Below are positions 39,591-53,567 of a DNA stretch of 64,000 nt, one piece after another (within the stretch, counting starts at the first letter, position 1; every line of letters starts with the position of its first letter). A program made the position numbers and the translations under genes. The notes under the pieces are model-generated. The model was given only the letters and a program-made list of their open reading frames with translations, was not told the DNA's origin and did no database searches. The DNA is from Beijerinckiaceae bacterium (lineage in GTDB: Bacteria > Pseudomonadota > Alphaproteobacteria > Rhizobiales > Beijerinckiaceae), in assembly GCA_947474545.1 (NCBI GenBank), contig CANJJI010000001.1, positions 1-64,000 on the forward strand. Reading direction: 5' to 3'.

Positions 39591-40481
39591 CTAACTTCTC
39601 AGCCTCCGGCACAATTCATCAAGTTGTTCGAGTGACTTGTATTTAATCGCCAACTCTCCTTTTTCTCCGCGATGTTTGATTTCCACCACAAGACCAAGTG
39701 CATCTGTCAAAGCCTGTTCAAGCGACTTGGTATCAGGATCTTTCATGCTGTGAGAGGATTTTCCCTCAGGGCCGTTTGAATTAATCCCCTCACCTGAACT
39801 GTTTTGTCCAAGACGTTCGAGATCACGAACACTCAATCCCTGCTCGACTGCCCGTTTCGCCATGGAATCCATGTCGGAAAAAGCGAGCAAGGCGCGGGCG
39901 TGGCCGGCCGAAATCTCGCCGGACGCCAACAGGCTCCTGGAATATTCGGGTAGTTTCTGTAATCGTAAGATATTAGCTATATGACTCCGGCTCTTGCCGA
40001 TAATTCGGGAAAGATCAGCCTGTGTATAGCCAAACTCAGTTGCAAGCTGCTCATAAGCCCGCCCTTCATCCAAGGCGTTCAAGTCCGAGCGTTGAACGTT
40101 TTCGACGATAGCGAGTTCCAACGCCTCGCGATCCGATACATCAATAACTATAACTGGCACCTCGTGAATTCCCGCGAGTTGCGCGGCCCGCCATCGCCTT
40201 TCACCGGCAATGATTTCATATGCGTTCGTTGCGCCCTTTACGTTGCGAACGAGAATGGGCTGGATAACGCCCTTTTCTTTTATTGAATCCGCAAGCTCCG
40301 ACAACGATTCAGCATCAAAATTCCGGCGCGGATTTTTGGGATTCGCATGAACAAATTCTATGGGAACCTTGCGCTGACCCGATAGGCTTTCACTTGTGAC
40401 CTCTGTCTCAATTGAATTTTCACCCATTAGCGCCGCAAGACCACGTCCCAGCCCCAATCTTTGTTTATTTTCGTCAGCCAT
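39591..40481 (-). CDS. parB: Chromosome partitioning protein ParB
   Basis: ParB is a CTPase clamp that loads at parS and spreads along DNA. From the ATG at 40481 the protein is 296 aa and begins MADENKQRLGLGRGLAALMG, the typical ParA-contact N-terminus. The CTP-binding motifs follow (NPKNPRRNF, GERRWRAAQLAG with ENVQRSDLNALDE), then the parS-reading helix-turn-helix ADLSRIIGKSRSHIANILRL and a C-terminal dimer domain. The ORF-track start is 26 codons too long and overlaps parA. Two perfect parS sites are nearby. Confidence 0.96.
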   Translation of the reverse strand: MADENKQRLGLGRGLAALMGENSIETEVTSESLSGQRKVPIEFVHANPKNPRRNFDAESLSELADSIKEKGVIQPILVRNVKGATNAYEIIAGERRWRAAQLAGIHEVPVIVIDVSDREALELAIVENVQRSDLNALDEGRAYEQLATEFGYTQADLSRIIGKSRSHIANILRLQKLPEYSRSLLASGEISAGHARALLAFSDMDSMAKRAVEQGLSVRDLERLGQNSSGEGINSNGPEGKSSHSMKDPDTKSLEQALTDALGLVVEIKHRGEKGELAIKYKSLEQLDELCRRLRS

Positions 40482-40512
40482 AACCCATCTTTCATAAAGT
40501 TTTGCACCGTGA

Positions 40513-41310
40513 TCAGGCTGCACAAAGTGCCTTTTCCCTTTGGATAATCTCAGACGCAAGTTTCAGATAGGCCTGACTGCCAGCGCATTTGAAATCATAA
40601 AGCAATACGGGTTTACCGTGTGAAGGCGCCTCTGAAATCCGAACGTTTCGTGGTATAATGGTATCGTAAACCTTCGCACCCATATGCAAACGAACGTCAG
40701 CTACAACTTGGCTAGCAAGGTTATTGCGGGGATCGAACATCGTCAGCACGACACCATGAATTGTCAGGCCCGGGTTTAAGGTACGCTTGACTTGCTCGAC
40801 CGTGGATAGAAGCTGCGAAAGGCCTTCCAAAGCGAAAAATTCACATTGAAGTGGAACAAGGACACTGTCAGCAGCAGCAAGGGCGTTCACTGTCAGCAAG
40901 TTTAGTGATGGCGGGCAATCAACCAGGACATAAGTAAACGGACCGCCATCCAGATCCGGATCTTGATTAAGCGTATCAATTGCTTTCTTGAAGCGATAGG
41001 CCCGATCGCTGGAGGAGGCAATTTCAAGCTCCACTCCAAGAAGATCAAGCGTGGACGGGGCTATGAAGAGACCGGGAACTGACGTTGGCTTTGCGGCCTG
41101 GCGCAACGTGCCTTCGCCGACCATGACGTGATATGTGGAAAACTTGCGATTATTTTTTTCTATTCCAAGACCTGTGGATGCATTCCCTTGCGGATCGAGA
41201 TCAGCTATGAGCACTTTTTCGCCAATAGCAGCAAGTGCCGTCCCCAGATTGATGGCCGTGGTGGTCTTACCAACGCCGCCTTTTTGATTGGCCAGAACCA
41301 GAACTCTCAT
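40513..41310 (-). CDS. parA: Chromosome partitioning ATPase ParA
   Basis: A Walker-type ATPase that forms a nucleoid gradient pulling ParB-bound origins apart. The deviant Walker A motif KGGVGKTTTAINLG is at residues 10-23, and DLDPQGNASTGLG and LVDCPPSLNLLTVNAL follow. The ATG at 41310 with GAGG upstream gives 265 aa; nine ORF-track codons are dropped. It is 31 bases before parB and 38 bases after rsmG. Confidence 0.97.
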   Translation of the reverse strand: MRVLVLANQKGGVGKTTTAINLGTALAAIGEKVLIADLDPQGNASTGLGIEKNNRKFSTYHVMVGEGTLRQAAKPTSVPGLFIAPSTLDLLGVELEIASSSDRAYRFKKAIDTLNQDPDLDGGPFTYVLVDCPPSLNLLTVNALAAADSVLVPLQCEFFALEGLSQLLSTVEQVKRTLNPGLTIHGVVLTMFDPRNNLASQVVADVRLHMGAKVYDTIIPRNVRISEAPSHGKPVLLYDFKCAGSQAYLKLASEIIQREKALCAA

Positions 41311-41348: not shown

Positions 41349-41990
41349 TCAGACCAAAGCCTCATTACCATTCCATTCAGCCTTGACGATTTTAGCCGAA
41401 GGTTCAGTAAGGCTGGGCAAAAATTCAAGTTTAACCCTACTAAATATAGGCGCATCCGTCAATTCTGATGCTACATCTTGTCCCTTTAGAAACAGCCCAA
41501 GGGCCCCATTTTTTAACAAAGGCGAACTCAGCTCCAAGAGTGATGGCAATCCTATAAGCGCCCGCGCTGTTACGATGTCGACTATTGGCAGATCATCAAT
41601 GACTGCTTCTACCCGGGCATTGTGCACCAGAGCCGGAGCTCCGGTCTCTCGAGCGACTTCCCTTAGAAAAGCACACTTTCGATGATCGCTTTCCACGAGG
41701 TGAATTTCAGTATTTTGGAAATCAGCAAGTAAAATTGCGATGACCAAACCGGGAAAACCCGCTCCAGATCCTAAATCAACCCACTTGCGCGCCTGAGGCG
41801 CCAGAGTTACCAGCTGTGCACTATCGGTAAAATGACGGGTCCATAAGCCGGGCAGTGTGGAGGGTGCTACGAGATTCTTTATTTTTTGCCATCGATGTAA
41901 TAAATTCTCATAGATTTCAAGGCGCACAATTGTTTCACGTGAAACACTGGTAATTCCTGGCAACCGGTTGCTTTTGACCTCCCAATTCAT
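41349..41990 (-). CDS. rsmG: 16S rRNA (guanine-527-N7)-methyltransferase RsmG
   Basis: Also called GidB; methylates G527 of 16S rRNA using S-adenosylmethionine. The SAM site is [17 protein letters not shown], and the N-terminal [11 protein letters not shown] and [16 protein letters not shown] segments are typical. The start ATG overlaps the mnmG stop (ATGA). A perfect parS site lies within the codons for SVSRETI, so the gene doubles as a segregation locus. Length 213 aa. Confidence 0.95.
41931..41946. promoter_or_regulatory. parS centromere site 1 (inside rsmG)
   Basis: TGTTTCACGTGAAACA, a perfect 16-base palindrome and exact match to the bacterial parS consensus to which ParB binds. It lies near the 5' end of rsmG and encodes part of SVSRETI. 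Confidence 0.95.
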
Positions 41991-43891: not shown

Positions 43892-43907
43892 TGTTTCACG
43901 TGAAACA
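43892..43907. promoter_or_regulatory. parS centromere site 2 (between mnmE and mnmG)
   Basis: A second perfect TGTTTCACGTGAAACA palindrome, intergenic, five bases beyond the mnmE stop and 24 bases before the mnmG start. It lies 1.96 kb from site 1 and about 6.5 kb from the proposed origin. Confidence 0.95.
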
Positions 43908-45306: not shown

Positions 45307-47367
45307 GTGCCCAAAAACGAACTCGCTACAGCTGCAAGTCCTTATCTTCTTCAGCACAGGACTAATCCCGTCCATTGGCGCGAATGGTCAACAAGCGCAC
45401 TCGACGAAGCCAAAACTACCGGGAAGCCCATTCTTCTCTCCATAGGCTACGCCGCATGCCACTGGTGCCACGTAATGGCCCATGAAAGTTTCGAGGACGA
45501 ATCAACAGCGCAATTAATGAACTCTCTTTTTATAAATATAAAAGTTGATCGTGAGGAGCGCCCTGATATCGATCAAATATACATGGCTGCGTTACACGCA
45601 CTCGGCCAGCCCGGTGGCTGGCCCCTGACAATGTTCGTAACGCCCAACGGCGACCCATTTTGGGGCGGCACTTATTTCCCGAAAGAAGCATCGCACGGAC
45701 GGCCATCTTTCAGACAAGTCCTACAGGAGGTTTCCCGGGTGTATCGGGAAGCACCGGAAAGGATAACGAACAACACTGCTGCACTTAAAAAAGCTGTCAC
45801 TGAGTCCGCCCCGGCACAACCTGCTGTGATGATTACAAATATTATGCTCGACGACTTTGCCAAACGTTTATTTCCCCACATGGATATGACCAATGGCGGT
45901 ATGCAAGGCGCGCCAAAATTCCCGAATACTCAGATCCTTGAGTTTTTTCTTCGTGCAGCAAGACGAACCCACGACAAGACGTTTTTCGAGCCCGTCGCTT
46001 TGACGCTGACAAAACTGTACGAAGGCGGAATTCACGACCATATTGGTGGAGGGTTTGCGCGCTACTCTGTAGACGAGCGATGGCACGTGCCGCATTTCGA
46101 AAAGATGCTCTACGATAACGCCCAATTGCTGGAACTATATGCAGCGGCCTGGCAATTAGATTCCAAACCAGCTTTTCGCGCCGCTGCCGAATCAATTGTC
46201 ACCTGGCTTAAGCGTGAAATGATCGAACCCTGCGGCGCGTTTTCAGCTAGCCAGGACGCTGATAGCGAGGGCGTCGAAGGCAAATATTATTGTTGGACAC
46301 TGCAAGAAATCCAGACCGTTCTCGCTCCGTCAGACGCAGAGCTTTTTATCAGACACTACGATGTCCAGACCGACGGCAATTGGCAAGAATTGCACACGGG
46401 AACCCGGACCAATGTTTTGAACCGGCTGGCGAGCGTCCCTGCCGGTACCGCAACTGAAGCCAGGCTGACTTCGATAAGAAAAAAATTGCTTCAAAACCGA
46501 AAACACCGCGTTCCCCCGTTACGCGACGACAAAGTTCTCTCCGACTGGAACGGCCTGATGATTGCCGCACTGGCCAGGGCATCCTGTATATTTAATGAGC
46601 CTGAATGGATACGGCTGGCAGCACAAAGTTTTCGTTCCGTAATCGATTCAATGACCAAAGCAAACAATGATTACATGAGAATCGGACATTCACGCCACCA
46701 GGGAAAACTTGTCTGGCCCGGCATGTCCTCTGATTACGCTTATATGATACGCGCCGCGCTCATGTTAAATGAAAACGGAGCTGTATTCACTGCTTCATCA
46801 GGACAATCATATATTGATATCGCAATTCGTCTCGCTCGTGCGTTGATAACTTTCCATGCCGATTCTGAAACCGGTCTTCTCTCACTACCCGCTCAGGATG
46901 CTACCGACGTTGTTTACAGGACATATGCGACACAAGACGATGCGACCCCGAATCCAAATTCCATTTTTTTGCAAACGCTCCAAATTCTGGCCTCAGCTAC
47001 GGCCGATCCCTTGTTTATGGACCACGGCAATCTCATGCTCAAATCAATCAATACATTCGCGATCAAGAACCCCTTTGGCCATTCATCTTATCTGAATGCG
47101 CTGGATTCCAGATTCAATGCATTTGAAGCCATTGTTGTAGGTAATCAACGCCAGGAATTTTTGTCTCTGCTCCGACAGGAGCCGTTAGTGAGCCGATTCG
47201 TTATTGAACTCGACGAAACCTCGATACACCAATCCCGGCGGTTCGCGCCCGCTATGACGAAAGATAAAACCTTCGTCTTTATTTGCCACGGCGAAGTCTG
47301 TTCTCTACCGATTACACAAACCGGAGCTTTGAAAGAAACCCTGTCGAAAATGAATAACGCATCATGA
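45307..47367 (+). CDS. YyaL/DUF255 thioredoxin-fold protein
   Basis: A 686-residue protein of the YyaL/SPATA20 family. The N-terminal thioredoxin-like DUF255 domain has NPVHWREWS, GYAACHWCHVMAHESFED with a CHWC motif, and DREERPDID. A six-hairpin glycosidase-like (alpha/alpha) region follows (GGIHDHIGGGFARYSVDERWHVPHF, SASQDADSEGVEGKYY, DDKVLSDWNGLMIAAL). The function is not established. The start is GTG with AGAGGA seven bases upstream. It is divergent from mnmE and convergent with rho. Confidence 0.92.
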   Translation: MPKNELATAASPYLLQHRTNPVHWREWSTSALDEAKTTGKPILLSIGYAACHWCHVMAHESFEDESTAQLMNSLFINIKVDREERPDIDQIYMAALHALGQPGGWPLTMFVTPNGDPFWGGTYFPKEASHGRPSFRQVLQEVSRVYREAPERITNNTAALKKAVTESAPAQPAVMITNIMLDDFAKRLFPHMDMTNGGMQGAPKFPNTQILEFFLRAARRTHDKTFFEPVALTLTKLYEGGIHDHIGGGFARYSVDERWHVPHFEKMLYDNAQLLELYAAAWQLDSKPAFRAAAESIVTWLKREMIEPCGAFSASQDADSEGVEGKYYCWTLQEIQTVLAPSDAELFIRHYDVQTDGNWQELHTGTRTNVLNRLASVPAGTATEARLTSIRKKLLQNRKHRVPPLRDDKVLSDWNGLMIAALARASCIFNEPEWIRLAAQSFRSVIDSMTKANNDYMRIGHSRHQGKLVWPGMSSDYAYMIRAALMLNENGAVFTASSGQSYIDIAIRLARALITFHADSETGLLSLPAQDATDVVYRTYATQDDATPNPNSIFLQTLQILASATADPLFMDHGNLMLKSINTFAIKNPFGHSSYLNALDSRFNAFEAIVVGNQRQEFLSLLRQEPLVSRFVIELDETSIHQSRRFAPAMTKDKTFVFICHGEVCSLPITQTGALKETLSKMNNAS

Positions 47368-47444
47368 CCGCTGAGCTCACGATGCATTACGATTCGGCCA
47401 TTATCATTCAGGTGCGACCGGTTCCGAATCAATTCCCCTGAGCA

Positions 47445-48713
47445 TCAGGTATTCATCGACTCAAAGAAGCTTGAATTCCCCTTGGGGGTTTCACGCAGCT
47501 TACCCAGTAGGAACTCAATCGCGTCCACCGTGCCCATGGGATTGAGGATACGTCTCAGGACATACATTTTCTTGAGAATATCCGGCGCGACGAGCAGCTC
47601 TTCCTTTCTGGTACCAGAACGGGTGATATCGATGGATGGGAACACACGCTTGTCCGCAACCTTGCGATCAAGAATGATTTCCGAATTACCGGTACCTTTG
47701 AATTCCTCAAAGATTACTTCGTCCATGCGCGAGCCGGTGTCAATCAGCGCCGTTGCAATGATCGTCAAAGATCCACCTTCTTCGATGTTTCTGGCAGCGC
47801 CAAAAAACCTCTTCGGCCGCTGCAACGCATTGGCGTCCACACCACCAGTAAGTACCTTACCTGAAGATGGAACAACAGTGTTATAGGCGCGCCCCAGACG
47901 AGTAATTGAATCCAGCAGGATGACAACATCCCGGCCATGTTCAACCAACCGCTTGGCTTTTTCGATGACCATCTCGGCAACCTGCACGTGACGAACAGCA
48001 GGTTCGTCAAAGGTTGAAGACACAACTTCACCCCGAACAGAGCGCTGCATATCTGTGACTTCTTCGGGCCTTTCATCTATCAGCAAAACAATCAGATAAC
48101 ATTCCGGATGATTTGCCGTCACAGACTGCGCGATGTTCTGCAACAGAACAGTTTTACCTGTTCGAGGAGGCGCAACGATTAACGCGCGCTGACCTTTACC
48201 AATGGGTGAAACGATATCGATGACTCGCGACGAAAGGTCTTTCCTTGTGGGATCATCTACTTCCAGCTTCAGCCGTTCATCAGGATAAAGCGGCGTCAGA
48301 TTATCAAAATGTACTTTGTGCCGAACTTTTTCAGGATCTTCAAAATTAATCGTATTGACCTTCACCAATGCGAAATACCGTTCACCTTCCTTGGGACTGC
48401 GGATCAAGCCTTCAACAGTATCCCCGGTGCGTAGACCAAATCGCCTGATCTGTGAAGGCGACACATAGATATCGTCAGGCCCAGCCAGATAATTAGCGTC
48501 TGAAGAACGCAGAAATCCAAATCCATCCTGCAGGACCTCAACGACACCTTCACCAACAATTTCGATATCCCGGCTCGCCAATTGCTTCAAAATGGCAAAC
48601 ATCAATTCTTGTTTGCGCATGATCGAAGCGTTCTCGACCTCGTGCTCTTCAGCAAAGGCCAACAATTCTGTTGGAGACTTGCTCTTGAGCTCTTGCAGCT
48701 TGATTTCCCGCAT
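47445..48713 (-). CDS. rho: Transcription termination factor Rho
   Basis: A hexameric RNA-dependent ATPase that ends transcription. Its 422 residues include the N-terminal helix ([18 protein letters not shown]), the cold-shock-like RNA-binding domain ([19 protein letters not shown]), Walker [13 protein letters not shown] near residue 180, [10 protein letters not shown] and the Q/R loops near VHFDEP-equivalent [10 protein letters not shown]. It lies between yyaL and hemJ; rho-hemJ-hemE is a conserved origin-proximal order. Confidence 0.97.
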
Positions 48714-48738
48714 GGGGGATATTCCTTGATCGGATTAG

Positions 48739-48754
48739 CCGGGTGAAGGCCCGG
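48739..48754 (-). promoter_or_regulatory. Hairpin in the rho leader
   Basis: CCGGG-TGAAGG-CCCGG forms a short stem-loop in the untranslated leader, about 25 bases before the rho start codon. rho genes often control themselves through the leader, but no specific mechanism can be read here. Confidence 0.3.
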
Positions 48755-48915
48755 ATTTAAGGAAGGGAATTGGCTGGCGCTGGGAGCTTTTTAGCATTCC
48801 CGCCGGATCCAGAAAATCTCAGGATACCGGGCCGTCAGCAAATCAGGGATGGACCACATGAATATGATGAAATAGCGCCAATGGCAAGCACGATGTCAGC
48901 CGCGCAAAGCGCAGA

Positions 48916-49338
48916 TTAGTATGGCTTAACTATTACAAGCACTACAATTCCGATCATCAGCAAGGTCGGAACTTCATTCAATATCCTGTAAAATTTCTCA
49001 CTACGTACAGAAATCCCAGTTTCCAGTTTATGCCGTTCGGCAGATAAAAAACCATGAATGCCGCTCATGCCAATCGCGAGTAAAAATTTGGACAGAAACC
49101 AGGCCTCCCGCCAAATCTCTCCAGCGAACGCCATCCAGAGACCTGTAAACCAGACCACACACATCGCGGGATTCATGATGAATCTCAGAAGACGCCGCTC
49201 CATAATCATCAACATTTTATCGCTGCCGGAGCCCTCCTCAACCCCGGCATGATAAACAAACAATCGCGGTAGATAGAGCATTCCTGCCATCCACGAAATA
49301 ACCGATATAACGTGCAAGGCCTTGATCCAGAGGATCAT
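48916..49338 (-). CDS. hemJ: Protoporphyrinogen IX oxidase HemJ
   Basis: A 140-residue membrane protein with four hydrophobic helices. The ILWIKALHVISVISWMAGML N-terminus, LPRLFVYH, MERRLLRFIMNPAM and the second-half WFLSKFLLAIGMSGIHG identify HemJ (UPF0093), the b-haem-binding oxidase that replaces HemG or HemY in many alphaproteobacteria. It lies directly downstream of hemE, 16 bases apart, so the two are probably co-transcribed. Confidence 0.93.
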   Translation of the reverse strand: MILWIKALHVISVISWMAGMLYLPRLFVYHAGVEEGSGSDKMLMIMERRLLRFIMNPAMCVVWFTGLWMAFAGEIWREAWFLSKFLLAIGMSGIHGFLSAERHKLETGISVRSEKFYRILNEVPTLLMIGIVVLVIVKPY

Positions 49339-49354
49339 TTTCGACAGCTCCGTT

Positions 49355-50404
49355 TCAGCCCCTGATCACGCGAAGCATTTTCTCCACATGTTCGATTGGC
49401 GTCGAAGGTAGTATCCCATGTCCCAAGTTGAAAATAAAAGGACCAGCCGACAATTCATAAAGGATTCGCCGCACCTCTGATTCCAGACTATCGCCGCCGG
49501 TAAGCAGGACTAGCGGGTCCAAATTACCTTGAACAGTCTTCCGGCCCTGGATGTACTGAGCAACCCATCGTGTATTGTCTGACGTATTCAGACCAAGAGC
49601 ATCTATATCAACACAATCAAGGAATTCCATCAGATGCGTCGCAACACCTCTCGGGAAAGCGATGATTCGCGCATCTGGGCATTTTGCTTTGACCCCCTGA
49701 GCAATTTTGAGAATTGGCTCAAGCGACCATTTACGAAAAGCAGGCCCAGGCAAAACACCAGCCCAGCTGTCAAAAATCTGGACGATCTCCACCCCCGCGG
49801 CAATCTGGCGAACCAGATAGTCAATTGAAGCTGACACCAATTTGCCAATCAGTTTTTCGAAAAGCTCTGGATAACGATAGGCGAATAGCCGCGCTGGCGC
49901 CTGATCCGGCGTGCCCTTCCCCGCGATCATATAGCTCGCGACAGTCCAGGGTGCACCGCAGAAGCCTATGAAAGCTACAGCATCCGGAAGCTCACCTTTC
50001 ACCCGGTCAATAGTCTCAAAAACAGGCTCAAGCAGCTTTAAATCTATTTGATCATGAAGTCTGGATAAGCCGGCTGCGTCTCCTATCGGTTGCAAGCGCG
50101 GACCTTCACCTTGCTCGAATGAGACCTTCTGACCTAGAGCTTCGGGAATGACGAGAATATCGCTGAACAGGATGGCGGCATCAAACCCAAACCGTTCTAT
50201 CGGTTGCAACGTAGCCCGGCTAGCCAGATCAGGCGAGAAGCAAAAATGCATGAAGCTATCACTAGTGGCCCGCAGTTCCCGATACTCCGGTAGGTACCGG
50301 CCTGCCTGGCGCATGAGCCAGACGGGCGGACGCGGGAGAACCTTTCCAGCCAGAGCATCCAGTATCGGTTTGCTGTTTAAAGGCTTCGGCAGGGGAAGGG
50401 TCAC
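49355..50404 (-). CDS. hemE: Uroporphyrinogen decarboxylase
   Basis: Removes four carboxyl groups from uroporphyrinogen III to give coproporphyrinogen. The N-terminal PPVWLMRQAGRYLPEYR, AILFSDILVIPEALG, GFCGAPWTVASYMI and the C-terminal FNLGHGILPSTPIEHV are family signatures. Length 349 aa is normal. It transcribes away from the proposed origin, as in Caulobacter, where the hemE promoter is part of the origin. An A/T-rich palindrome with two GANTC sites lies 20 bases before the start. Confidence 0.96.
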   Translation of the reverse strand: MTLPLPKPLNSKPILDALAGKVLPRPPVWLMRQAGRYLPEYRELRATSDSFMHFCFSPDLASRATLQPIERFGFDAAILFSDILVIPEALGQKVSFEQGEGPRLQPIGDAAGLSRLHDQIDLKLLEPVFETIDRVKGELPDAVAFIGFCGAPWTVASYMIAGKGTPDQAPARLFAYRYPELFEKLIGKLVSASIDYLVRQIAAGVEIVQIFDSWAGVLPGPAFRKWSLEPILKIAQGVKAKCPDARIIAFPRGVATHLMEFLDCVDIDALGLNTSDNTRWVAQYIQGRKTVQGNLDPLVLLTGGDSLESEVRRILYELSAGPFIFNLGHGILPSTPIEHVEKMLRVIRG

Positions 50405-50423
50405 TCGGAAACCTATCTAATAG

Positions 50424-50437
50424 AGATTCTAGAATCT
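50424..50437. repeat. 14-base palindrome with twin GANTC sites
   Basis: AGATTCTAGAATCT is a perfect palindrome carrying two GANTC sites (50425-50429 and 50432-50436), 20 bases before the hemE start. It could be an operator or a methylation-sensitive origin element. Confidence 0.55.
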
Positions 50438-50454
50438 GTTTTTAGCGTTTAGCC

Positions 50455-50463
50455 TGTGGGAAT
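50455..50463 (-). promoter_or_regulatory. DnaA-box-like site (weak)
   Basis: Minus strand ATTCCCACA; two differences from TTWTNCACA. One of three TGTGGG cores spaced exactly 145 bases apart. Confidence 0.4.
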
Positions 50464-50599
50464 CAAACATCGAATTAATCGCAGGGAAATCAGTACACAA
50501 CCCACAAGCCAAGTTCTGGGACAACTACAATCGGGCATCTTAATATCAGAAAATAACACTTAATAACAGTAGCGTATTGAGGAAAAAAAAATCACGAAT

Positions 50600-50608
50600 T
50601 GTGGGAAA
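50600..50608 (-). promoter_or_regulatory. DnaA-box-like site beside the A/T-rich stretch
   Basis: Minus strand TTTCCCACA; one difference from TTWTNCACA. It lies at the edge of the A/T-rich stretch. Confidence 0.55.
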
Positions 50609-50720
50609 ACATTTATTTATCTTGTCCTCGCAATTCCTCTTTCACTGCAACGGTGGTGCCGCTGTTGACAAGACAGCGGGGATATCTCCTCAGTTCCCGG
50701 CATCCAGACGTTGTCGAGGA

Positions 50721-50729
50721 TTGTCCACA
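50721..50729 (+). promoter_or_regulatory. DnaA box
   Basis: TTGTCCACA; one difference from TTWTNCACA and a form often found in origins. It is paired with an opposite-strand box 24 bases away. Confidence 0.65.
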
Positions 50730-50744
50730 ACGGCCCGAGCGACC

Positions 50745-50753
50745 TGTGGGTAA
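50745..50753 (-). promoter_or_regulatory. DnaA box
   Basis: Minus strand TTACCCACA; one difference from TTWTNCACA. It lies 26 bases before the PPSR start codon. Confidence 0.6.
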
Positions 50754-50779
50754 TTCCAAGAATCCAAGAGGGTTCCAAA

Positions 50780-51613
50780 GTGAATCGCAATTACTTTCAT
50801 TTGCATCTGGTATCGGATGCGACCGGGGAAACTCTGATTGCGGTCAGCCGCGCTGTTGCAGCTCTCTTCCAGAGCGCGGCGTCCATTGAACACGTTTACC
50901 CTTTGATCCGCTCCAGGGCGCAGCTGGACCGGGCCATCGCGGAAATCTCTTCTGCCCCGGGGATAGTGCTGTTCACCCTTGTCGACGAGGAACTTTCAGA
51001 AGTCCTTCAGAATGCCTGTTCTGAGATGGGAAGCCCCTGCCTTTCTGTCTTGCAGCCCGTTCTTAGCCTTTTCCAATCCTATCTCGGCGCCGTTTCCACT
51101 TCCCGCCCGGGCGCCCAGCACATGCTCAATGCCGAATATTTCAAACGGATCGACGCTCTCAACTTCACCATGATGCATGACGACGGGCAACAGCCGGAAA
51201 ATCTGGAACAGGCGGATGTATTGCTTCTCGGAGTCAGTCGTACATCCAAAACTCCGACGAGTATTTATCTGGCCAATCGAGGCATTAAGACTGCCAATAT
51301 CCCGCTTGTGCCGGGCGTACCCCTGCCCTCCTCGGTCACAGGCCTGAAAAAGCCGCTGGTGATCGGCCTGATTGCATCGCCCGAGCGGATTGTCCAGATC
51401 CGCCAGAACCGGCTGTTGACCCTGAATGCGGATCAGGAAACGCCCTACGTCGACCGCCTGTCGGTAGCCGAGGAAATCGCTCAATCCAAAAAACTATTCG
51501 TAGCCCACGGCTGGCCGATTATCGACGTCACTCGCAGGTCCATTGAAGAGACGGCGGCTGCAATCATGGATTTTTACAAGGAGCACAAACAGCGGCTTTC
51601 AGCCGAAAATTGA
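50780..51613 (+). CDS. PPSR kinase/pyrophosphorylase (DUF299)
   Basis: A bifunctional regulator that phosphorylates and dephosphorylates PEP synthase or pyruvate phosphate dikinase. The N-terminal [14 protein letters not shown], the P-loop-like [18 protein letters not shown] and [13 protein letters not shown] are diagnostic. The ORF-track start at 50711 would cover the two best DnaA boxes; GTG 50780 with GAGGG eight bases upstream and the conserved N-terminus is better (277 aa). This is the RP001-type gene that flanks the origin in relatives. Which dikinase it controls is not shown here. Confidence 0.92.
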
Positions 51614-51627
51614 TTGGAAGACCACAG

Positions 51628-52239
51628 ATGTCTAACTTTTGGTTGGGTCAAGACCCACTCGTCCTTGCCTCTGCAAGCAAAATTCGCAGCCAGATTCTCG
51701 CTTCAGCAGGAATTCCGCACGATATAGTTCCGGCCAGTGTTGACGAGCGAAATCTTGAAAACTCAGCGCAAGGACAGGAAGGGCCAGCAATTGCTCTGAT
51801 GCTGGCGCAAGCGAAGGCTGAATCAGTGTCCGCACAAAAGCCGGGGAGGATGGTTCTCGGAGCGGATCAGACGCTGACGATAGCATCACAAATATTCCAC
51901 AAACCAGGCTGCCGTGCAAATGCACGCCGCCAGTTGCTGTCGCTCAAAGGGCAAGCCCACCGGTTGAATTCGGCCCTGGCGCTGGTGCAGGGCGGGACCT
52001 TGCTGTTCGCCACTGTAATCAGCGCCACACTCACCATGCGCAATTTTTCAGAAGCGTTTCTAGACAATTATCTGAATGCGGCAGGTCCTGATATTTTCTC
52101 CAGCGTTGGTTGCTATCATATTGAAGGAATCGGCATCCACTTGTTCGACAAGATCGACGGAGACCAATTCACTATCATGGGCCTGCCTCTGATTCCGTTG
52201 CTGGACCATTTTCGAAACCTCGGTCTCATAATAAGATGA
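51628..52239 (+). CDS. Maf-family nucleotide pyrophosphatase
   Basis: A Maf-like hydrolase of non-canonical nucleoside triphosphates, 203 aa from the ATG at 51628 (GGAAG seven bases upstream). LVLASASKIRSQILASAGI is the N-terminal signature, with VDERNLE, VLGADQTL and FSSVGCYHIEGIG. The DQT motif region fits the family. The gene follows PPSR by 14 bases and precedes coaE, a conserved origin-proximal string. Confidence 0.92.
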   Translation: MSNFWLGQDPLVLASASKIRSQILASAGIPHDIVPASVDERNLENSAQGQEGPAIALMLAQAKAESVSAQKPGRMVLGADQTLTIASQIFHKPGCRANARRQLLSLKGQAHRLNSALALVQGGTLLFATVISATLTMRNFSEAFLDNYLNAAGPDIFSSVGCYHIEGIGIHLFDKIDGDQFTIMGLPLIPLLDHFRNLGLIIR

Positions 52240-52273
52240 AACTGGCTTCCCGAAATACGTTGGACCGAAAACC

Positions 52274-52858
52274 ATGATCATCGGATTGACCGGCTCAATC
52301 GGAATGGGAAAATCAGCGACGGCCGCAATGCTTCGCGACGAAGGCATCCCCGTTCATGATTCCGATGCGTCGGTGCATTTACTCTACCGCGGGGCCGCTA
52401 TTCCGGCCATCGCTCGGCATTTTCCGGCCGCAATAGTTGATGGTATTGTCGATCGGGCCAGGCTCGGTCCCGAAGTTCTGGGCAAGCCGGAGAGGATGAC
52501 ACTGCTCGAATCCATCATTCACCCATTGGTGGGCCAAGCGCGACAGGATTTCATCAACAACAATTTAGCCGCGGGCCGTTCTATCATGGTTGTGGATATC
52601 CCGCTTCTGTTTGAAATTGGGGGGGAGAAGGATGTGGACATCGTCCTGGTGACCTCCGCTCCTGATGATATTCAGGAGCGAAGGGTTCTTGCCCGTACTG
52701 GGATGACACGCGAAAAGTTTCTTGCAATCCGCGCAAGGCAAGTTCCCAATGCTGAGAAATGCCGCCGTGCGCATAGGGTCATTGACACAAGTATTGGATT
52801 TGGTTCAGCCCAGCTTCAGGTCAGAGCATTCCTGCGGTCGATCGCGGCTTTCAGATAG
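52274..52858 (+). CDS. coaE: Dephospho-CoA kinase
   Basis: Catalyses the last step of coenzyme A synthesis. The P-loop GLTGSIGMGKSATAAML is at the N-terminus, followed by VHDSDASVHLLY and DIPLLFEIGGEKDVD. Length 194 aa is standard. The gene ends ten bases before dnaQ, and coaE-dnaQ is a common alphaproteobacterial pairing. Confidence 0.95.
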   Translation: MIIGLTGSIGMGKSATAAMLRDEGIPVHDSDASVHLLYRGAAIPAIARHFPAAIVDGIVDRARLGPEVLGKPERMTLLESIIHPLVGQARQDFINNNLAAGRSIMVVDIPLLFEIGGEKDVDIVLVTSAPDDIQERRVLARTGMTREKFLAIRARQVPNAEKCRRAHRVIDTSIGFGSAQLQVRAFLRSIAAFR

Positions 52859-52868
52859 GAATCAGTAA

Positions 52869-53567
52869 ATGGCGTTGCGCGAAATTGTTCTCGACACGGA
52901 AACGACGGGGCTCGATCCCGCTACTGGTGATCGGCTTGTCGAACTCGGCTGTGTAGAGCTTCTGAATTCGATTCCAACAGGCGAAACTTTTCATCGCCAC
53001 ATTGATCCCGAGCGTGAAGTACCCCATGAAGCGTTTCGGATTCATGGCCTTTCAACGGAATTTTTACGCGGAAAACCCAAATTTGCTGAAATTGCGAGCG
53101 ATTTTTTTGAATTCATCGGCGAATCCAAACTGATTATCCACAACGCTGAATTCGACTTAAAGTTTCTGAACGCCGAATTGCGGCGAATAGAATTTCCGCC
53201 CCTCAACAGTGATCGCGTCGTGGATACGCTCGCGCTCGCGCGGCGCAAACATCCAGGTGCGCCGGCTAGTCTTGACGCCCTCTGTGTTCGCTACGGGATC
53301 GATAATTCACGGCGCACGAAACATGGCGCGCTGCTCGACTCTGAAATTCTGGCGGAGGTCTATCTGGAACTGACAGGTGGCCGCCAGTCAGCACTACAGC
53401 TTGCGAGCGTAGGACAGACGACCCGGAAAATTCAACTTGCCGTGGTGGATCTGGTCAAAATGAGGCCCGCGCCACTGCCGCAGTTTCTGATGACTGACGA
53501 ACTCACGGCGCACGAGAAAATGCTGGAATCAATGGGCGAGAAAAGCGTCTGGCGCCAATATCGGTAG
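52869..53567 (+). CDS. dnaQ: DNA polymerase III epsilon subunit (proofreading exonuclease)
   Basis: A DEDDh 3'-5' exonuclease, 232 aa: Exo I in VLDTETTGLDPATGDRL, Exo II in IHNAEFDLKFLN, and Exo III in KHGALLDSEILAEVY with the catalytic His. It proofreads with the alpha polymerase subunit. The C-terminal tail is short, as in alphaproteobacteria. It converges on secB with a 23-base gap. Confidence 0.95.
   Translation: MALREIVLDTETTGLDPATGDRLVELGCVELLNSIPTGETFHRHIDPEREVPHEAFRIHGLSTEFLRGKPKFAEIASDFFEFIGESKLIIHNAEFDLKFLNAELRRIEFPPLNSDRVVDTLALARRKHPGAPASLDALCVRYGIDNSRRTKHGALLDSEILAEVYLELTGGRQSALQLASVGQTTRKIQLAVVDLVKMRPAPLPQFLMTDELTAHEKMLESMGEKSVWRQYR

Follow-up and report, generated by a model that had tools for sequence, protein, structure and literature searches.

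The window analysed here, a stretch of 64,000 nucleotides, comprises bases 1–64000 of a 77,291-bp contig from a 4.8 Mb draft genome in 286 contigs. Within it, hemE and the gene for the PPSR/COG1806 kinase-pyrophosphorylase diverge from a gap of 375 bp. The G+C content of this gap is 43.7%, compared with about 49–59% in 2-kb windows of the contig, so that its A/T content is above that of the genome. The named relatives of the PPSR protein are mostly from Beijerinckiaceae metagenome assemblies. We searched 36 genomes of the same genus, and compared the regions upstream of PPSR for 89 distinct genes, 30 from congeners (the same genus or close kin of it, PPSR at least 77% identical) and 59 others. 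The PPSR start had been placed at GTG 50780 in an earlier note on this DNA, and the comparison bears this out, since codon conservation starts precisely there and each of the 30 congener sequences has GTG, TTG or ATG at that position. A start at TTG 50711 was discarded because conservation begins at 50780. The features of the locus are as follows.

39591–40559, minus strand: parB (PF02195, PF17762, PF23552).
40513–41310, minus strand: parA (PF13614).
41931–41946: parS, TGTTTCACGTGAAACA, a perfect site.
43892–43907: parS, TGTTTCACGTGAAACA, a perfect site.
49355–50404, minus strand: hemE, uroporphyrinogen decarboxylase, left flank (PF01208, E 1.9e-108).
50405–50779: proposed oriC between the divergent hemE and PPSR (skew change point, box cluster, conservation).
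About 50405–50453: A/T-rich segment at the hemE end, likely the DNA-unwinding element, holding the palindrome of the next line (from the stability of the congener gaps).
50424–50437: 14-bp palindrome AGATTCTAGAATCT, which holds a pair of GANTC (CcrM) sites spaced 7 bp apart and is unchanged in the two closest relatives (loci L006 and L007).
50455–50463, minus strand: DnaA-box-like site 1, TGTGGGAAT (also given as ATTCCCACA), adjoining the likely unwinding element; CTGTGGGA is conserved in L005, L006 and L007.
50498–50506, plus strand: DnaA-box-like site 2, CAACCCACA, the weakest.
50537–50620: second A/T-rich unstable stretch, less conserved in congeners, with an A-run at about 50580.
50549–50563: putative eroded CtrA-type site GAAAATAACACTTAA, with two mismatches, at −231 from PPSR, the same place as the congener site.
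50600–50608, minus strand: DnaA-box-like site 3, TGTGGGAAA (also given as TTTCCCACA).
50662–50686: clade-conserved element CTGTTGACAA...GGGATATC, not a DnaA box (from the alignment with L006 and L007).
50721–50729, plus strand: DnaA-box-like site 4, TTGTCCACA, the best match, in the box-rich zone of the congeners at −60 to −20.
50745–50753, minus strand: DnaA-box-like site 5, TGTGGGTAA (also given as TTACCCACA), in the same box-rich zone.
50780–51613, plus strand: PPSR/COG1806 kinase-pyrophosphorylase, GTG start, right flank (PF03618, E 2.9e-90; start kept in the 30 congener sequences).

Five (T/C)CCACA cores lie in the gap, at 50455 (−), 50502 (+), 50600 (−), 50725 (+) and 50745 (−). All four of the DnaA-box-like sites listed in the earlier note, and the fifth CCCACA core (site 2), were thus located. 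With 0.4 cores expected, none of 2000 dinucleotide shuffles reached five, and the gap is the densest cluster of such cores on the 77-kb contig (5 against 0.24 expected, Poisson, P ~5e-6). All but one of the five boxes read CCCACA, which is off the family consensus; TCCACA alone, with 1 against 0.21 expected, is not significant in the window gap. A strict search for TTNYCCACA was sparse in the relatives and was replaced by unbiased k-mer counting. This motif-free count gave TCCACA as the top enriched 6-mer both in the 30 congener gaps (73 against 4.9 expected, about 15-fold) and in the 59 other gaps (100 against 10, 10-fold), these being, like the counts of CtrA-type sites below, counts over related sequences and non-independent events. 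The usual context is C/T-C/T-A/G-TCCACA-G, and the congener boxes concentrate at −60 to −20 and −300 to −240 from PPSR. The two closest relatives share the palindrome and the box CTGTGGGA next to it with the window, and most of the other boxes have turned over. The element at 50662–50686 is common to the three closest genomes, and TGTTGA recurs in other congeners as well.

An A/T-rich run and many GANTC sites had also been described for the gap; the second description holds only mildly. The run is present at 50537–50620 (70–80% A+T over 50540–50619), but the conserved unstable segment is instead at the hemE end. In 28 of the 30 congener gaps, the least stable 40-bp window starts −401 to −334 from PPSR, which corresponds to the hemE end (about 50405–50453) of the window gap. 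We suggest that this conserved A/T-rich segment is probably the unwinding element. Its likeness to the E. coli GATCTNTTNTTTT 13-mers proved slight (8.40 against 7.97 of 11 matches), and no resemblance is claimed. There are four GANTC sites in the gap, against 1.2–1.7 expected (P 0.035; 167 of 2000 shuffles have as many), a mild excess that is weak for the window gap alone. Over the whole set, the motif is enriched, with 49 against 29.5 and 42 against 25.2 in congeners. The palindrome AGATTCTAGAATCT is kept in the window genome and in the congeners G019 and G003; a GATTC-N2-GAATC arrangement occurs also in L023 and L029.

The parAB genes and parS, previously noted as lying nearby, were identified by Pfam matches and by perfect matches, respectively. 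The two parS sites lie 6.5 and 8.5 kb from the gap, and the 4.8-Mb assembly has no other perfect one. Likewise, in the congeners G021 and G023, as in the window genome, the only parS sites fall 4–9 kb from the gap.

The GC skew of the window's own genome is a contig-level result, as the draft is in 286 contigs, and whole-chromosome skew was obtained from sampled stretches of the near-complete congener G021 (two contigs, the main one of 5.94 Mb). On the window contig, the best change point is at 51534 (block-bootstrap interval 47194–53308), and none of 200 permutations was as strong. In G021, the change point is at 4,516,478 (interval 4,513,299–4,520,208), with PPSR at 4,516,504–4,517,331, and the mean skew per base is −0.010 before and +0.034 after it. 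The coarse samples of G021 are positive from 4.52 Mb via 5.92 Mb to 1.32 Mb and mostly negative from 1.60 to 4.51 Mb, apart from weakly positive values at 4.0, 4.42 and 4.46 Mb. At this coarse sampling, the opposite turn is between about 1.32 and 1.60 Mb, and the antipode is at about 1.55 Mb. A dif pattern search in G021, allowing two mismatches, gave no match, so the terminus is placed by the coarse skew alone. The fraction of genes on the plus strand is balanced on the two sides of the turn, 0.51 and 0.47; thus, the skew is not an effect of gene orientation. The skew interval of G023, 473–491 kb, contains the gap (487.3–487.8 kb), and the change point of G003, at 240795, is at the right place and poorly bounded (94–333 kb). 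G055, a single contig from another family of the order, showed no clear skew turn at hemE–PPSR or in the coarse samples. Intermediate skew was seen over about 50–100 kb on the PPSR side, towards dnaA, in G021 (contig C1, about 4.42–4.516 Mb) and G023 (contig C9, about 0.488–0.53 Mb), and the skew attains its full value only beyond this stretch.

Could the origin lie beside dnaA, the hemE–PPSR gap being merely origin-proximal? The two genes are close enough to raise the question, since dnaA is just 51–82 kb from PPSR in three congeners (in G021 at 4,464,726, 51 kb away), and the intermediate skew between PPSR and dnaA in G021 and G023 might be read in this way. However, dnaA lies away from the skew turn in these three congeners, and the strongest change point of G021 is at PPSR, with dnaA outside its interval. 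In the window genome, dnaA is on a separate contig, C7, where no skew turn is seen at the gene and its 1-kb upstream region contains no (T/C)CCACA core, so that the box cluster and skew turn expected beside dnaA are both missing there. The parS sites, furthermore, are close to hemE–PPSR. We consider an origin beside dnaA very improbable. A skew minimum and a read-depth maximum elsewhere, for example at a distant dnaA, had been named in advance as grounds for giving up the proposed origin; the skew turn is at the gap both on the window contig and in G021.

In the congeners, hemE is an optional neighbour of the gap. It no longer borders PPSR in 13 of the 30 congener gaps, which are spread over several branches of the PPSR tree (L010, L014, L023, L024, L029, L030, L044 and L063 among them); PPSR itself and the boxes have remained. 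In the cases inspected, hemJ and rho neighbour PPSR, and hemE was found elsewhere in 9 of 10 searched genomes whose gap had lost it. These gaps keep both TCCACA boxes (33 against 2.0 expected) and CtrA-type sites (7 against 0.12 expected), and their persistence without hemE speaks against a region that is simply the hemE promoter. A mere divergent promoter for hemE and PPSR, with the DnaA boxes serving transcription control, would fit the divergent arrangement of the genes, and DnaA is known to regulate transcription in Caulobacter (PMC4468827). Nevertheless, a scan of the gap 50405–50779 found no sigma-70 promoter pattern, and the skew turn at the gap is chromosome-wide, so we give this explanation very little weight. 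A chance cluster of boxes combined with a skew change caused by the orientation of nearby genes is scarcely credible, for although the boxes are off consensus and the genes diverge at the gap, no shuffle produced five boxes, and gene strands are balanced over the hundreds of kb that the skew turn spans.

Skew, box enrichment, the conserved layout and the proximity of parS locate the origin between hemE and PPSR, where the earlier note had proposed it, and the neighbouring genes agree. The gap 50405–50779 is very probably the single chromosomal origin (oriC), of the hemE–PPSR type of Caulobacter and Rickettsia. From what is established for DnaA, DnaA binding, an opening site and bidirectional firing would be expected here. 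DnaA-ATP would bind the pair of boxes on the PPSR side (50721–50753) and box 1 (50455–50463), and may then spread cooperatively over the gap via the weaker CCCACA boxes. DnaA would open the A/T-rich hemE-end element (about 50405–50453), where the helicase would be loaded, with forks departing both ways. ParB, at the two parS sites 6.5–8.5 kb off, would segregate the new origins.

The hemE–PPSR junction is the origin site in both Caulobacter and Rickettsia (PMC1914354), in agreement with what had been said of it beforehand. Cori of Caulobacter crescentus (hemE/CC_0001, COG1806) has the same flanks as the window gap and is 404 bp long as compared with 375 bp, and both contain several DnaA boxes and an A/T-rich segment (PMC1914354). 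The Caulobacter boxes are weak DnaA-binding G- and W-boxes (PMC4468827), with the sequences TGATCCACA and TCCCCA, respectively (PMC4285127), whereas those of the window gap are mostly NNNCCCACA. Cori further contains five sites for CtrA and one for IHF, while the window gap has neither consensus; the IHF consensus WATCA-N5-WTR is absent on both strands, which is weak evidence since the consensus is loose. The Rickettsia prowazekii origin (hemE/RP_001) is at the same junction and of comparable length, 384 bp, but it is far more A+T-rich, at 82.6% (PMC1914354), and here too the window gap stands apart in having no CtrA or IHF consensus. CtrA sites are variable among Caulobacter-type origins, and one Wolbachia origin and that of Ehrlichia ruminantium are without them (PMC1914354), so a CtrA site is not a required feature. 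In Hyphomonas neptunium, marker frequency peaks near hemE, parAB lies about 7 kb away from that gene and there are two parS sites (PMC6650430), a layout that resembles the window locus; CtrA binds beside that origin by ChIP-seq (PMC7200025), whereas the CtrA-type site of the window is eroded. The 30 congener gaps are like the window in the PPSR flank, the unstable segment at the far end and the box-rich zone at −60 to −20, and differ in having TCCACA rather than CCCACA boxes, a TTAA-N7-TTAA site in 16 of 30, and no hemE in 13 of 30. The window gap is thus of Caulobacter type by its position between hemE and COG1806, its dense boxes, its A/T-rich unstable segment and the skew turn (on the window contig, in G021 and in G023), and lacks the TTAA-N7-TTAA sites and the IHF site.

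What has become of CtrA control at this origin? In the 16 congener gaps with TTAA-N7-TTAA, the site is often TTAACGAANNNTTAACGA or close to it and lies −183 to −270 from PPSR, mostly −217 to −251; the background is 2–4 per 400 kb of surrounding sequence. There is no TTAA-N7-TTAA in the window gap, where TTAA repeats are found at 50540 and 50560 and the best remnant has two mismatches, and there is likewise none in the gaps of L006 and L007. These three loci form a clade with 100/100 support, and the sister clade mostly retains the site. CtrA is encoded in all four genomes tested, with 83–84% identity to a Caulobacter CtrA query, and GcrA is encoded by the window genome. Since the site is absent throughout the three-member clade and mostly kept by its sister clade while CtrA is intact, it was likely lost at the origin of replication of the window clade, which still encodes CtrA. 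The mid-gap site of the congeners and its erosion in the window clade are a new observation. Tentatively, and with the balance somewhat against it, the origin of the window genome, G019 and G003 may have escaped direct CtrA control, the boxes having drifted to CCCACA in the window genome, so that initiation would be tuned by DnaA alone, perhaps together with GANTC methylation at the palindrome.

These results fix the origin for a little-studied freshwater genus of Beijerinckiaceae. They also make hemE an unreliable origin marker, because 13 of the 30 congener loci no longer have it at the junction. The genus offers a natural experiment, with the CtrA-type site kept at one place in half of the origins and probably lost in one well-supported clade that encodes CtrA, and the congener set makes it possible to compare how CtrA control of replication is gained and lost, and with what consequence.
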